DNA of 62,024 bases, taken from positions 1 through 62,024 of the forward strand of contig JAGXRP010000001.1 of assembly GCA_018335795.1 (NCBI GenBank), in the 5' to 3' direction. The notes under the pieces are model-generated. The model was not told the origin of the DNA, made no database searches, and saw nothing but the letters and a program-made list of their open reading frames with translations. Below, piece after piece: positions 25,603-62,003 of the stretch (the first letter of the stretch is position 1; each line of letters starts with the position of its first letter). This DNA is from Desulfobulbaceae bacterium. GTDB taxonomy: Bacteria; Bacteroidota; Ignavibacteria; Kapaibacteriales; UBA2268. Position numbers and translations under genes: made by a program.

Positions 25603-25637
25603 AAACTTCGTTATACTTTAAAAGCATAACGAAGTTT
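25603..25637. terminator. Hairpin between converging lectin-like and tricorn-like genes
   Basis: Stem AAACTTCGTTAT / ATAACGAAGTTT (25603-25614 and 25626-25637), 11-nt loop, A-rich before and TTT after. It lies between two converging genes and may stop both. Confidence 0.7.
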
Positions 25638-41637: not shown

Positions 41638-41654
41638 AATGGCGTAAAAAAAAA

Positions 41655-41684
41655 CATAGCCCACGGTTTCAACCGTGGGTTATG
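41655..41684 (-). terminator. REP-like palindrome acting as terminator of nuoJ-nuoK
   Basis: Arms CATAGCCCACGGTT / AACCGTGGGTTATG (one G-T pair) with loop TC. On the minus strand it is followed by a run of nine T, so it should end the nuoJ-nuoK transcript. The core ACGGTT/AACCGT resembles the in-gene palindromes at 58074 and 59491, which suggests the same repeat family. Confidence 0.75.
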
Positions 41685-41722
41685 TGCTTAAACGACTTCT
41701 TTCAAAACCTTCCCTTTCCCTC

Positions 41723-57911: not shown

Positions 57912-59189
57912 CTATATCTTCACAAACATCTGCGTTTGACTACCGATACGCAGGTAGTACACACCACGAGGGAGATGCGAAATGTCAATGCGTTGTAGAG
58001 ACAATTCATGAATTGTCTCTACAGTCAATACACATTCCCCAAGTGTATTGAAGATTTTGATTTCCGAACCTTCATCAACCCTACGGTTAACCGTAGGGTT
58101 GATAGTAGCATTGATTTCTATATACTCCGTTGCTGGATTTGGAGAAAGTATAATCCCATTTGACTTTGAAACTTCCGAATCTTCTACGCTAGTGAGAGAT
58201 AGAATATCATTGCTGACGCCACCTTCACGATAGACATAAAGCCCAATTGCTGTACCAAACCATTTATGATTATCATCATCTACGGCAATTGAATATGCCC
58301 AAAATTTTTCTACATCATACTTAAAGAAATTCCAGTCCGTGCCATCATACATTATTATCCCACTATTATCAGTAGCTGCCGAGACGCCACCCCAAATCTT
58401 ATTGTTTTTATCAATTGCCATTGACATCAGATAAGGATTTTTGATGGGTATATCTTCATCAATCCAAAGAGTATTCCAATTCTCGCCATCGTAATTTAGA
58501 AAATAAGTCGAACGATTGAAAATCCAAATCTTCCCTTCTGTATCCTTGCAAAATATTTCAGGCATCCAAATTGGAATTTCTTCATCACCCGGCAGTTTAA
58601 GAAATGGAGTAATTTCCTCAGTCATAATATCCATACGATTTAAATAATCATTGGAATTTATCCACAAATCCTTCCCCTCGGGAAATAACCTTCTCACCCA
58701 ATTGCCTGTCAATTCAGAATTTGTAGCACTATATCTTTTCCACTCTGTATCATTAAATTTAAATAGACCGGTATATGCACTACCGAGCCATTTATTATTA
58801 TATTTGTCAATTGCAAAAGATTGAACAAAAAAATCGTAATCATTTTCAATCAAATTGTAAAAGTCATAATTTACTTTTGTCCAATTTTGATTGTCATACA
58901 CCAAGAAAAAAGAATCTCGAGGGAGCCAGATATTTTTAAATTCATCAAATGCAAAAAGACTTACACCATTAGGAATAGGCGAGTTCGAAGAGTTAAAAAT
59001 TGTACTTGTTCCGGATTCAAGATTTATCTTTGTCAAACCATTTTTTTCGTTCCCATACCAAATGTTTCCGTCCAAAAATGTAACATTATACGTTCTCAAA
59101 TCATTAATTTTCACCCATTCAGGGTTTGAAGCAATTACATGTACAAAAGTATAACACATGATAACTACAAGTATTAAATATTTTTTCAT
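57912..59189 (-). CDS. Secreted propeller protein (reg_prop-like) with type IX tail and two in-frame palindromes
   Basis: 425 residues, signal peptide MKKYLILVVIMCYTFVHVIA. Blades with the two-component-regulator-propeller pattern: NIWYGNEKNGLTKINLESGTS, NKWLGSAYTGLFKF, KIWIFNRSTYFLNYDGENW, KIWGGVSAATDNSGIIMYD and HKWFGTAIGLYVYREGG. The Por_Secre_tail begins LSPNPATEYIEINATI. Two perfect 30-bp palindromes sit in it: 58074-58103 (encoding INPTVNRRVD) and 57994-58023 (encoding VETIHELSLQ), both in frame and free of stops. Likely a surface protein. Confidence 0.85.
   Translation of the reverse strand: MKKYLILVVIMCYTFVHVIASNPEWVKINDLRTYNVTFLDGNIWYGNEKNGLTKINLESGTSTIFNSSNSPIPNGVSLFAFDEFKNIWLPRDSFFLVYDNQNWTKVNYDFYNLIENDYDFFVQSFAIDKYNNKWLGSAYTGLFKFNDTEWKRYSATNSELTGNWVRRLFPEGKDLWINSNDYLNRMDIMTEEITPFLKLPGDEEIPIWMPEIFCKDTEGKIWIFNRSTYFLNYDGENWNTLWIDEDIPIKNPYLMSMAIDKNNKIWGGVSAATDNSGIIMYDGTDWNFFKYDVEKFWAYSIAVDDDNHKWFGTAIGLYVYREGGVSNDILSLTSVEDSEVSKSNGIILSPNPATEYIEINATINPTVNRRVDEGSEIKIFNTLGECVLTVETIHELSLQRIDISHLPRGVYYLRIGSQTQMFVKI
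57994..58023. repeat. Perfect 30-bp palindrome inside coding sequence (family TGTAGRGACA)
   Basis: TGTAGAGACAATTCA followed at once by its exact reverse complement. It lies in the sorting-domain loop after GECVL and encodes VETIHELSLQ in the minus reading frame. It shares ends TGTAGRGACA/TGTCYCTACA with the intergenic palindrome at 59295-59323. Confidence 0.95.
58074..58103. repeat. Perfect 30-bp palindrome inside coding sequence (family CCCTACGGTT)
   Basis: ATCAACCCTACGGTT followed at once by its exact reverse complement. It encodes INPTVNRRVD within the sorting domain. Diverged copies occur at the same domain position at 59491-59520 and 41440-41469. Confidence 0.95.
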
Positions 59190-59259
59190 AATTTTTCTCC
59201 ATTTTATAAAACATTATTAAAGTAAAAAAAATAGCTGTCTAAATGCTGTATTCTCGTCC

Positions 59260-59280
59260 TGTCAGTTGTTACAACTGACA
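59260..59280. repeat. Palindromic repeat, family GTCAGTT/AACTGAC, second copy
   Basis: Arms TGTCAGTTG / CAACTGACA around TTA. Shares the core GTCAGTT...AACTGAC with 874-906. It lies in the 139-bp gap between the two large secreted-protein genes, upstream of 57912-59189. Confidence 0.8.
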
Positions 59281-59294
59281 AAACATATATATAT

Positions 59295-59323
59295 GTAGGG
59301 ACAGAACGCTGTTCTGTCCCTAC
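59295..59323. repeat. Intergenic palindrome, family TGTAGRGACA
   Basis: Arms GTAGGGACAGAAC / GTTCTGTCCCTAC with a 3-nt loop GCT. It is 6 nt from the stop of the 59329-60675 gene. Same terminal motif as the in-gene palindrome at 57994-58023. It may serve as its terminator, though no T run follows. Confidence 0.9.
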
Positions 59324-59328
59324 GATGT

Positions 59329-60675
59329 TTAAATCTTCACAAATATTTGCGTTTGTTTGCCGATACGGACATAATACACACCACGAGGGAGATGTCCTAC
59401 ATTCATCCGATGACTTGGAGTCATCGGATGAATTGATTCGTTAAGAACACATTCACCAAGTGTGTTGAAGATTTTGATTTCTGAACCTTCATCAACCTTA
59501 CAGTTAACCGTAGGGTTGATGTCAATGGCTATTTCAATATATTCCGTTGCCGGGTTGGGATAAATTGAAAATTGATTTTCAGAATTTAAATCGAAATCGT
59601 CAATGTCCGAAACTCCAAGTCTTGAGTACCTGTAAATATTTCTCCAAGTATTCATTGCTAATGCTGCAGCACTGTTTTGGTCAAGCATGATAACGGTGCT
59701 AATTCGCTCGTAAAATTCAGCAGTTGTGAAACTCGGGTCCCATTCCCAAGTTTCTCCACCGTCCGTTGTTTGATATACATACGCTAAAGTAGTAGCAATT
59801 CCATATAAAGAATCGGCGAAGTGTAGAGAAACAATAGGGTCGTGAGGGGATACCTCATGATCAAAAACAAATTTCCAACTTCTGCCCCCATCAGTAGTTT
59901 TACGAATAAATTTCCTATCACCTTTAAATTGTCCCCTGCTTATTCCTCCATACTGAAATCCCAGATTTTCATTTACAAAATGGAGGCTTCCCCCTGGCGG
60001 ATATTCCGGTCCCGGGTATGATTCCCATGTTGCACCGAAATCCGTAGTTTTATGAAAATAGTAAACTGAATCAGTTTTTGTATCTGCTTCAGTAAAATAA
60101 GCCGAATATTTATCAAATAAGATGAGATATGATGCGTTAGGAATGTTGACTACAGGTACTTTAGGGAAATCAAACCAAGTTTCGCCTCCGTTTGTTGTTC
60201 TACGAACTAATCCATCATTCTGAAAAATAATTCCATTATTTTTATCCCAAAATTTTATTAAATATGTCCTTGTTTTATTTTCAAACTGATGCTTATTCCA
60301 ATTTATGCCATTATCAGTGGTTCGGTAATAGTATCCGGAATCGCAAACAATTATAGCAAGCGAAGTATCAGGATAGCTAATTGCGTTTGCTCTTGATTCA
60401 TAAACGCTTGGTGGAATTTTTAAAGTATAATTATAGCTTTTGCCCGAATCAGAACTTTGCAATATGTGGGGACTATTAAAATTAACATTACCTATAACCA
60501 TAATGTCTTTCCCGTTTGGTGATACAATGTCAATCATCTGACAAGCCCAATAACTATCACCACTACTTTTGATATACATATCTGCAACCACTTCCCATTT
60601 TCCGGTTTGAGCGATGCTTTTGTATGTAAAAAAAATCATTAAGATACAGAAAATTTTAAAAAAATTGGAATTCAT
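59329..60675 (-). CDS. Secreted BNR/YCF48-like propeller protein with type IX tail and two in-frame palindromes
   Basis: 448 residues, signal peptide MNSNFFKIFCILMIFFTYKSIAQ. Repeats are of the BNR/photosystem-II-stability type: SSDSGKSYNYTLKI, TTDNGINWNKHQFEN, TTNGGETWFDFPKV, TTDFGATWESYPG, TTDGGRSWKFVF and TTDGGETWEWD, so a six-bladed propeller. The tail IYPNPATEYIEIAIDINPTVN to GVYYVRIGKQTQIFVKI is almost identical to that of the 57912-59189 protein. Its palindromes are at 59401-59433 (encoding SIHPMTPSHRM) and 59491-59520 (degenerate, encoding INPTVNCKV). Confidence 0.85.
   Translation of the reverse strand: MNSNFFKIFCILMIFFTYKSIAQTGKWEVVADMYIKSSGDSYWACQMIDIVSPNGKDIMVIGNVNFNSPHILQSSDSGKSYNYTLKIPPSVYESRANAISYPDTSLAIIVCDSGYYYRTTDNGINWNKHQFENKTRTYLIKFWDKNNGIIFQNDGLVRRTTNGGETWFDFPKVPVVNIPNASYLILFDKYSAYFTEADTKTDSVYYFHKTTDFGATWESYPGPEYPPGGSLHFVNENLGFQYGGISRGQFKGDRKFIRKTTDGGRSWKFVFDHEVSPHDPIVSLHFADSLYGIATTLAYVYQTTDGGETWEWDPSFTTAEFYERISTVIMLDQNSAAALAMNTWRNIYRYSRLGVSDIDDFDLNSENQFSIYPNPATEYIEIAIDINPTVNCKVDEGSEIKIFNTLGECVLNESIHPMTPSHRMNVGHLPRGVYYVRIGKQTQIFVKI
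59401..59433. repeat. 33-bp palindrome inside coding sequence (family ATTCATCCGATGACT)
   Basis: Arms ATTCATCCGATGACT / AGTCATCGGATGAAT with loop TGG. It lies in the same sorting-domain loop (after GECVL) where the neighbouring gene has the unrelated palindrome 57994-58023. Length 33 preserves the frame. Confidence 0.95.
59491..59520. repeat. Degenerate 30-bp palindrome inside coding sequence (family CCCTACGGTT)
   Basis: Same as 58074-58103 except that CCCTACGG in the left arm is CCTTACAG here, giving two non-Watson-Crick positions. It encodes INPTVNCKVD. Confidence 0.85.
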
Positions 60676-60689
60676 ACTTACCTCACTTT

Positions 60690-61166
60690 TTATTCGGGAC
60701 TATTGCAAATGAAGAAACAGCCAAAGGAAGTTGTTGCTTCACAGTTAACTTCTGTACTTATCACTTCAAGCAACTCATAAGTAATATTATCATTACCATC
60801 TCGACAGAGGCGATAGCGATGAACGCAACAATTTTCACCCTGGCACTTCCTAAATGTTCGTATTGGCATTACATATAAATCATTTAAACTATAACCTGGA
60901 ATTGTATAATCCTGCCAACATGCTGATTGAAAAAGTCTATAATAATCTTTACATTTATTTGGATCAGGGATATTTGGGAAATGGTATTTTAAAAGATTGT
61001 CCACAACAGCTGCATGTATTTCTGATGGCAATGTATTACATGGTGGGCAAGATCCTTCCACGAAATCAATTCTATCTAAGTATAAATCATTAGCTGATTC
61101 TAAACCAAATTCAGGACATGCATATGTTATTCTTTGTCTATAATAAACTGTTACTGAACATCCTGG
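60690..61166 (-). pseudogene. 3' part of Cys-rich secreted protein gene, separated by in-frame TGA
   Basis: In the same frame as the upstream gene and directly after its TGA (61169-61167). Read through, it continues PGCSVTVYYRQRITYACPEF to the stop at 60690. A GTG start at 61061 would give 123 residues (MEGSCPPCNTLPSEIHA...), but the part between, with conserved-looking Cys, speaks against a separate gene. It carries the modules GENCCVHRYRLC and ATTSFGCFFIC, matching GECCYWIVYHD in the upstream part. Either a nonsense-mutated gene, or UGA is read through; a sequencing error is also possible so near the window edge. Confidence 0.6.
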
Positions 61167-62003
61167 TCAAAAAGGTAATTCCATTTCGTAACTATTATTT
61201 AACATAAAAGATTCGCTATTACAAGCCACATTACAATGTAAAGGAGGCTCAGGTTCTTCTACAGCTGTTATATTTTCATAAATTACATTTTCACAAAACT
61301 TTGAACATGACGAAGGACAATAGCGTGTCTGACCATAATATATTCTACTTACTGAAGTTTCATTATTGGAATCTATATCGGTAATAGAATGATTTGAAAT
61401 TGAAACTTGTTTATCACGATAACAACAATATTCAAATTCATCACAAGCAATGGGGTCGCCATTTTCATCAAATACTACATTTCCATTAATATCTTTTTGG
61501 AAACAGCCACCGGTAGAATAAAAATATATTGGTTTCGAGCCTGATATAAAAGATGGTATATAAACATTTGGAGAGACTTCCATGGTTATTTCATATTGAA
61601 AGAATCCTATTGGTTTACTTTTGAATAAACATACATGAAAAGCATGAATAATTTCACTTTTAGTTCTTTCATCACAATCTTCACCTTCGGCAATAACGGC
61701 GACTACATTGACTTGGTAAGATTTTTGCTGTGTAACGTCATTTGTTATCGTTCTATCATGATAGACTATCCAATAACAACATTCTCCAAGTTCACTGTTT
61801 TCAAGCTCACTACAAGTATTTGTACACAATTTGTAATACTTCTTTACAGACCAAGGGTTACCGGAATCATATTGGTCAGTAAAACAAGGTGAAGGGGTGG
61901 TCATATTCAAAACTTCTTCAGGTACTTGTTGTGCTTTTGTTAACGTAACATTAGTTAAGTATAGTATGCAAATTGCTACTGTCAATAGCCATAAGGTTCT
62001 CGT
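61167..62003 (-). CDS. Cys-rich secreted protein, 5' end uncertain at a poly-C tract near the window end
   Basis: About 275 residues visible. The frame is open up to the window edge through the C tract (G tract on the plus strand). A signal peptide TLWLLTVAICILYLTNVTLTKAQ is complete except for the start; the TTG at 61985 cuts it in the middle and is unlikely. The mature part has paired Cys in repeated units: LGECCYWIVYHDRTI, CDEFEYCCYRDKQVSI and RYCPSSCSKFC. I do not recognise the family. An ATG at 62019-62017 would be in frame if the C tract were 10 instead of 11. It stops at TGA 61169-61167; the frame continues after it (see the 60690-61166 entry). Confidence 0.6.
   Translation of the reverse strand, partial: TRTLWLLTVAICILYLTNVTLTKAQQVPEEVLNMTTPSPCFTDQYDSGNPWSVKKYYKLCTNTCSELENSELGECCYWIVYHDRTITNDVTQQKSYQVNVVAVIAEGEDCDERTKSEIIHAFHVCLFKSKPIGFFQYEITMEVSPNVYIPSFISGSKPIYFYSTGGCFQKDINGNVVFDENGDPIACDEFEYCCYRDKQVSISNHSITDIDSNNETSVSRIYYGQTRYCPSSCSKFCENVIYENITAVEEPEPPLHCNVACNSESFMLNNSYEMELPF

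Follow-up and report, generated by a model that had tools for sequence, protein, structure and literature searches.

Families of palindromic elements lie in frame in two loops of type IX sorting domains and differ between orthologous genes

Introduction

Two neighboring genes of the 62,024-nt contig JAGXRP010000001.1 (assembly GCA_018335795.1), the whole stretch of which is called the window here, end in predicted type IX C-terminal sorting domains (tails), and each tail carries two palindromes within its coding sequence. This raises the question of how palindromic DNA came to lie in the same parts of two tails whose genes are otherwise unrelated. A first-pass annotation of the window took the palindromes for in-frame insertions, either two independent ones or a replacement at a tolerant site, and likened them to Rickettsia palindromic elements (RPEs).

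In the available part of PMC3733652, RPEs and intragenic repetitive extragenic palindromic sequences (REPs) are described as short palindromic repeats that are found between genes and are also translated in frame in varied enzymes. The same text reports one case in which different REPs occupy about the same site, in recB of two Xanthomonas, and places intragenic REPs mostly at differing sites of differing genes (PMC3733652). As for the tails, secretion depends on the beta3-beta4 loop and the C terminus, and the remaining loops differ in length, according to the accessible portion of PMC11285876. Here, the palindromes of the window were compared across the tails of its source genome (G000), the sister species G001 and G002, and other members of the family and order.

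Results

Both genes score 43.9 bits against Por_Secre_tail (PF18962), above the curated cutoff of 27 bits. Their tails are 61% identical as protein over 97 columns, and their bodies are unrelated by BLAST; gene duplication was therefore rejected as the reason that the tails match. Each tail holds one palindrome at a position termed loop 1 (beta2-beta3) and one at a position termed loop 2 (beta4-beta5) (Table 1). The first-pass annotation had called all four perfect. This holds for those at 57994, 58074, and 59401, whose arms are fully complementary (in the last case around a 3-nt spacer), and not for the palindrome at 59491, which has 2 mismatches. As it had also reported, the lengths (30, 30, 33, and 30 bp) are divisible by 3, and each of them stays open in the coding frame.

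The arm scores of the palindromes at 57994, 58074, 59401, and 59491 were 15, 15, 15, and 10, whereas five Markov shuffles of the 62-kb window gave no score above 11; the last is therefore not outstanding alone and was identified as a 58074-type copy. When the same peptides were encoded with random synonymous codons, the observed scores were reached in 0, 0, 9, and 18 of 20,000 draws. Neither chance nor the amino acids therefore account for the palindromes, and the possibility raised in the first-pass annotation that amino acid constraint alone explains the arms is ruled out. The mRNA hairpins are strong (folding z-scores of −6.9 and −7.5 versus shuffles), and the RNA of the 57994 element folds into a 13-bp stem with a 4-nt loop.

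A predicted model of the gene 1 tail (71 sequences; mean confidence [pLDDT] of 79) has seven strands, as in a seven-stranded Ig-like sandwich. Its best fold match was the mirolase tail 8qb1 (Z score of 10.5 over 77 residues, root mean square deviation of 3.2); the fold search also returned many fibronectin-type domains, a common arrangement, and these were not used. In the model, the loop 1 palindrome encodes residues 25 to 34, within the beta2-beta3 loop (confidence is below 50 at residues 26 to 35), and the loop 2 palindrome encodes residues 51 to 61, spanning the beta4-beta5 loop. The model and the fold match bear out the earlier placement of the palindromes in loops between tail beta strands. 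The beta3-beta4 turn (NTLGE) and the C terminus contain no palindromes, so that the inserts keep clear of both parts that the accessible portion of PMC11285876 links to secretion. In a PDB profile search (18 sequences, of which the 14 with an E value of >0.04 were not used), the solved lipase chain 7pzj, which matches the tail profile at its end (E = 3e−07), was shorter at loop 1 by exactly ten residues in the alignment. The tails studied here share their fold, a conserved beta3-beta4 glycine turn, and the C-terminal strand with known type IX C-terminal domains (mirolase 8qb1, PorU, PorZ, NucA, and RemA), but their beta2-beta3 and beta4-beta5 loops are made of repeated palindromic DNA.

Palindromic elements of 24 to 33 bp, belonging to at least five families, were found in the tails in mixed combinations at the two sites. 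In G000, 150 of the 220 Por_Secre_tail candidates were scored, and all 150 scored tails were read with their flanks. At three mismatches or fewer, the ATCAACCC element (the 58074 type) has 5 copies in this genome, 5 of 5 in tails; the GTAG...AATTC element (the 57994 type) has 4 copies of its 28-bp core, all in tails; the AGATGTCC element has 8, all 8 in tails or tail fragments; the AACCTTC element has 10, 4 of them in tails; and the ATTCATC element (the 59401 type) has 6 sites, 2 of them in typed tails. The patterns of five families read backwards as a control gave 0 matches in G000. Among the 119 genomes searched, 7 contain ATCAACCC, and nearly all of the sites read in context were loop 1 of a tail; the exceptions that were not clearly loop 1 were one site in G006 and one in G021. 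G001 has 20 such sites (18 tails typed accordingly) and G002 has 15 (15 typed). The IHPMT element has 37 sites in G001 and G002 together, 9 in typed tails and most of the others unread.

The density of palindromes (score of ≥12) was determined in a sample of about 525 kb of G000 that consisted mostly of tail neighborhoods and was not random, with open reading frames (ORFs) called by a simple length rule. Tail DNA (37 kb) held 22 palindromes, non-ORF DNA (43 kb) held 38, and other ORFs (445 kb) held 8, one of which (C39) is in fact a tail fragment. By our reading, one of the 22 tail palindromes straddles a stop codon, and the remaining 21 are distributed over 13 tails. Within the genes of this sample, palindromes of this score are nearly limited to one tail subfamily.

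The loops were compared in 95 tails (30 from G000, 26 from G001, 29 from G002, and 10 from other family or order members), and loop 1 was tabulated against loop 2 in the 85 tails from the three species of the genus. Loop 1 held INPTVNRRVD in 39 tails, KPSEGFEPSEG in 15, and three rarer elements in 8, with none typed in 23. Loop 2 held VETxHxxSLQ in 23, DVQHLGDVGHL in 15, IHPMTxSHRMN in 12, and a repeat-like PSTGSGSGN stretch, a class typed by peptide only, in 19, with none typed in 16. The INPTVN element is paired with the four loop 2 classes in 3, 17, 5, and 12 tails (plus 2 untyped), and the PSEGF element is paired with them in 4, 3, 5, and 3. Every typed element is read in a single frame (39/39, 25/25, 16/16, 15/15, and 13/13). 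The GTAG type occupies loop 2 in the three species of the genus and loop 1 at L148 and, judged by peptide, at L133; the AACCTTC type occupies loop 1 in this genus and at L212 and L245 and loop 2 in a Kapaibacterium tail (L251). Insertion into two tolerant sites would be expected to place a type at either loop, as seen for these two. Tails with short, empty-like loops were also found (C21:70628, L198, L200, and L193). Arm mismatches amount to 2.8% in the IHPMT element, whose 3-nt spacer is variable; within tails, the PSEGF and AGATGTCC elements show almost as little variation in the spacer as in the arms. Some copies carry paired changes in both arms (GTAGAGACACGACATGTCGTGTCTCTAC and CAACCATACGGTTAACCGTATGGTTG).

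Other repeat-like features were seen in the same material. The 15-bp arms of several 33-mers (AACCTTCCGAAGGTT, AGATGTCCAACATCT, and AAACTTCGGAAGTTT; L009 to L201) are themselves near palindromes around a short center, giving a palindrome of palindromes, and short loops such as QTSEV resemble a single arm. A longer imperfect hairpin repeat, GTCTGAACTATGATTT..., lies downstream of tail genes (G000:C77:104210-104305 and the 3' end of L128) and represents another dispersed family. The loop 2 stretches PSTGSGSGN, LRQAQGTD, and NPPLPKRE, which have no strong palindrome, look like translated bits of other dispersed repeats (CCTTCGACAGGCTCAGG-like).

In G002, genes 1 and 2 are adjacent and in the same order, and the DNA of their bodies is 0.896 and 0.885 identical to that of the window. 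The loops of G002 gene 1 hold AACCTTC and ATTCATC elements, and those of gene 2 hold a decayed AAACTTC element and a GTAGAGACACGGC element; the element type differs from that of the window at all four loops. This comparison was extended to 26 reciprocal-best ortholog pairs, which were drawn from the fetched tails alone (30, 26, and 29), are partly three-way and thus nonindependent, and were scored with "untyped" as a type. The loop 1 type differed in 19 pairs and the loop 2 type in 16, one partner being untyped in 5 of each; the type was kept at both loops in 4 pairs, at one loop in 9, and at neither in 13. Two pairs whose body DNA is 0.978 and 0.979 identical already differ at one loop each. 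Loop 1 types agreed in 7 of the 26 pairs, with 8.6 expected from random cross-genome pairs, and among the 16 pairs whose bodies share at least 80% identity, types agreed in 4 (5.0 expected) at loop 1 and in 4 (2.7 expected) at loop 2. Orthology is uninformative on the loop 1 type and slightly informative on the loop 2 type (see Discussion), and rewriting appears to be faster in the tail loops than in the gene bodies.

Replacement at a tolerant site was thus seen in ortholog pairs, whereas the two independent insertions that the first-pass annotation had offered beside it are inseparable from copying between tails. The observations that it had looked to for support, namely tails with and without inserts at both loops, arms elsewhere, and relatives in a different state, were all found.

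To describe what is exchanged, codon use was compared among tails typed by peptide, since typing by DNA similarity could bias the result. In five elements, the same amino acid was encoded by the same codon at frequencies of 0.969, 0.976, 0.910, 0.987, and 0.944, compared with 0.465 to 0.782 in backbone segments of the same tails. The elements are therefore uniform at the level of DNA. The excess identity among same-type tails stops approximately 0 to 4 codons beyond the palindrome. The mean lengths of identical runs farther out to the left and right of loop 1 were 3.5 and 4.4 nt in same-type and 3.4 and 3.9 nt in different-type comparisons, and those of loop 2 were 4.8 and 3.7 nt and 4.1 and 3.1 nt, respectively.

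One element was followed beyond the tails. A search with a degenerate AACCTTC/AAACTTC 33-mer pattern gave at least 117 contig stretches, of which 80 (L202 to L281) were read and 37 were left unread; among the matches listed, record titles include Ignavibacteria, Kapaibacterium, Bacteroidetes, Cloacimonadota, Neomarinimicrobiota, Chloroflexi, Armatimonadota, and Zixibacteria. Within the order, 13 of 60 genomes of relatives contain the AACCTTC element at two mismatches or fewer, with up to 30 copies. The 80 loci that were read hold 94 copies, 70 intergenic and 24 in ORFs as called by the length rule. The nearest ORF end was a 3' end for 51 of the intergenic copies and a 5' end for 19; REPs are mostly located downstream of genes. 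The AACCTTC consensus is open in all three frames, PSEG/TSEV being the hydrophilic one. In ORFs of at least 300 amino acids (n = 14, two of which are G002 tails), the copies are read in the PSEG/TSEV frame in 12 cases, in the NLPKV frame in 2 (one ORF), and in the third frame in 0; in shorter, less certain ORFs (n = 10), the corresponding counts are 2, 7, and 1. The nontail hosts include an aconitase, a lipoyl synthase, an Eco57I-type methylase, an N6/N4 methylase, and two ABC ATPases, which carry the element in the same place and appear ABC-F-like from their domains; the records of the host loci (L276, L272, L257, L265, L234, and L280) are titled Anaerolineales, Bacteroidota, Chloroflexi, Neomarinimicrobiota, and Cloacimonadales. 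Within proteins, the AACCTTC element resembles the described Rickettsia elements and intragenic REPs, and its occurrence both in frame in proteins and between genes agrees with the likeness drawn in the first-pass annotation.

Table 1 Features of the two tail genes and their palindromes in the window
Feature	Position	Strand	Description
Gene 1	57912..59189	-	425 amino acids; propeller-like body; predicted type IX C-terminal sorting domain
Gene 1 Por_Secre_tail domain	57921..58142	-	47 bits in genome-wide tail scoring
Loop 2 (beta4-beta5) palindrome, gene 1	57994..58023	-	Perfect, 30 bp; GTAG type; peptide TVETIHELSLQ
Loop 1 (beta2-beta3) palindrome, gene 1	58074..58103	-	Perfect, 30 bp; peptide INPTVNRRVD
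Intergenic GTAG-type palindrome	59295..59323	.	Just downstream of gene 2; absent from the first-pass annotation
Gene 2	59329..60675	-	448 amino acids; BNR/YCF48-like; predicted type IX sorting domain
Gene 2 Por_Secre_tail domain	59341..59565	-	47.3 bits in genome-wide tail scoring
Loop 2 palindrome, gene 2	59401..59433	-	33 bp; perfect 15-bp arms and 3-nt spacer; peptide IHPMTPSHRMN
Loop 1 palindrome, gene 2	59491..59520	-	30 bp; 2 mismatched pairs; decayed copy of 58074 element; peptide INPTVNCKVD

The G002 counterpart of the intergenic palindrome at 59295 to 59323 has a truncated second arm. More strong palindromes lie in the window at 874 to 906 (in a short called ORF), 25603 to 25637, and 41654 to 41685 (both in non-ORF DNA), the last of which starts 16 nt past the end of another tail gene. 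Beyond gene 2, the adjacent minus-strand ORFs at 60690 to 61061 and 61167 to 61985 may be pieces of one Cys-rich gene; the contig end near them contains a run of G.

Discussion

We consider it likely that the palindromes are REP/RPE-like in-frame inserts that are tolerated in two tail loops and spread between tails through element copying and recombination in short patches. Elements would enter a tail by insertion, with only those offering an open, hydrophilic frame being retained. The beta2-beta3 and beta4-beta5 loops would tolerate 8 to 11 extra residues, so that elements persist there, and the elements would then move from tail to tail by element copying and by short-patch recombination among paralogous tails, which hairpin breakage perhaps provokes. 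The effect on the protein would be a loop extension of 8 to 11 residues that secretion tolerates and that is probably near-neutral, and the strong mRNA hairpins near the 3' end would be a by-product. Since ATCAACCC is found almost only in tails, spread between tails is likelier than fresh insertion for this element.

Several results weigh against this account. The (near) confinement of ATCAACCC and AGATGTCC to tails is more in keeping with spread by recombination than with free transposition. At loop 2, types agreed in 10 of the 26 ortholog pairs versus 5.2 expected (P = 0.024), a weak ortholog signal, and identical flanks of at least 15 nt had frequencies of 0.058 in same-type versus 0.014 in different-type comparisons on the left and 0.019 versus 0.012 on the right. 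The ortholog signal is lost at the start of the tail backbone (0.818 for orthologs versus 0.807 for other tails) and in its middle (0.813 versus 0.789) and is kept at its end (0.800 versus 0.673), and in the closest pairs the differing patch is wider than the palindrome. An exchange of the loop alone was dropped on these last two grounds, the loss of signal in the backbone and the wider patches; they indicate instead that short-patch tail recombination is frequent and carries part of the exchange. Part of the exchange is thus plain tail-to-tail recombination or descent. No target-site duplication was identified in the flank profiles, which were the only evidence examined for one. GTAG-tagged REPs are thought to be mobilized by RAYT (Y1) transposases; no Y1_Tnp (PF01797) transposase was found in the one genome searched for it (G000; E ≤ 0.001, 11 candidates scored), while the control was positive in 5 of 14 genomes, and a RAYT/Y1 origin of the elements is not supported in G000.

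A bolder proposal, conceivable and in our view doubtful, is a self-spreading variation system in which hairpin formation would cause breaks at the loop, repair would copy the element of another tail, and secreted proteins would keep reshuffling two exposed loops. If true, fast surface or sorting diversity would be built from 30-bp selfish DNA.

Selection at the level of nucleic acid, with hairpins kept for the stability or regulation of the mRNA 3' end or as DNA sites, is compatible with in-frame insertion and spread between tails, and we judge it unlikely. The strong folds, the paired arm changes (GTAGAGACACGACATGTCGTGTCTCTAC and CAACCATACGGTTAACCGTATGGTTG), the well-matched arms of the IHPMT element around a varying spacer, and the 3' ends nearest to 51 of 70 intergenic AACCTTC copies would suit it. 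Quasi-palindrome correction, however, can also yield paired arm changes. Furthermore, 23 of the 85 tails lack a typed loop 1 element and 35 lack a typed loop 2 palindrome (19 of these being repeat-like), and what is kept is the sequence of the family and not merely its pairing, the PSEGF and AGATGTCC spacers varying no more than their arms do in tails.

Whole-tail or long-tract gene conversion, by which tails would be exchanged as modules with the palindromes as old passengers, is quite unlikely. Tails are multicopy (150 scored in G000), unrelated bodies carry tails that are 61% identical, the backbone start and middle lack ortholog signal, and the L054 pair differs at both loops and the middle while matching at both ends, all of which conversion would accommodate. 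It is harder to reconcile with an element type that is hardly linked to the backbone past 0 to 4 codons, with elements far more uniform than the backbone at synonymous positions, and with the occurrence of some of the same elements outside tails. That amino acid constraint or chance makes the arms has a negligible probability: peptides of one type do recur, but the synonymous draws and the backwards controls speak against it.

In-frame palindromic inserts are already known. The in-frame and intergenic occurrence of RPEs and intragenic REPs is matched here by the AACCTTC element, whereas ATCAACCC and AGATGTCC are nearly tail-only. In contrast to those repeats, the elements described here occupy two fixed sites in one multicopy domain, with several families sharing the sites and differing between orthologs. 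Like GTAG REPs, the 57994, 59295, and VETRHAVSL elements start with GTAG; the other families have no GTAG end. Unlike GTAG REPs, these GTAG-starting elements are nearly or fully symmetric, so that the other end is CTAC, and G000 has no Y1_Tnp gene. The available text of PMC3733652 gives the GTAG REP hairpin a stem of 5 to 13 bp and a loop of 2 to 20 nt, a range that includes the 57994 element, and places a CGTC tetranucleotide at one end of CGTC REPs, a tag that is absent from the elements here, whose unit is 24 to 33 bp. Among the matches listed from open-license articles, none described palindromes within type IX tails, the sharing of fixed loop positions by several families, or exchange between orthologs, and the exact palindrome arms had no match in the open-license literature. 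As the first-pass annotation had supposed for type IX tails, these three aspects appear to be new.

These tails offer a natural replicated experiment on selfish palindromic DNA becoming protein, each of the three genomes contributing tens of copies at the two homologous loops. Empty-like sites, competing families, and differing orthologs make the insertion, replacement, and decay of in-frame elements measurable. Annotated proteins can contain translated repeats as loop peptides (for instance, PSEGFEPSEG or VETRHAVSLQ), and the finding shows in which of its loops the type IX signal accepts additional sequence.

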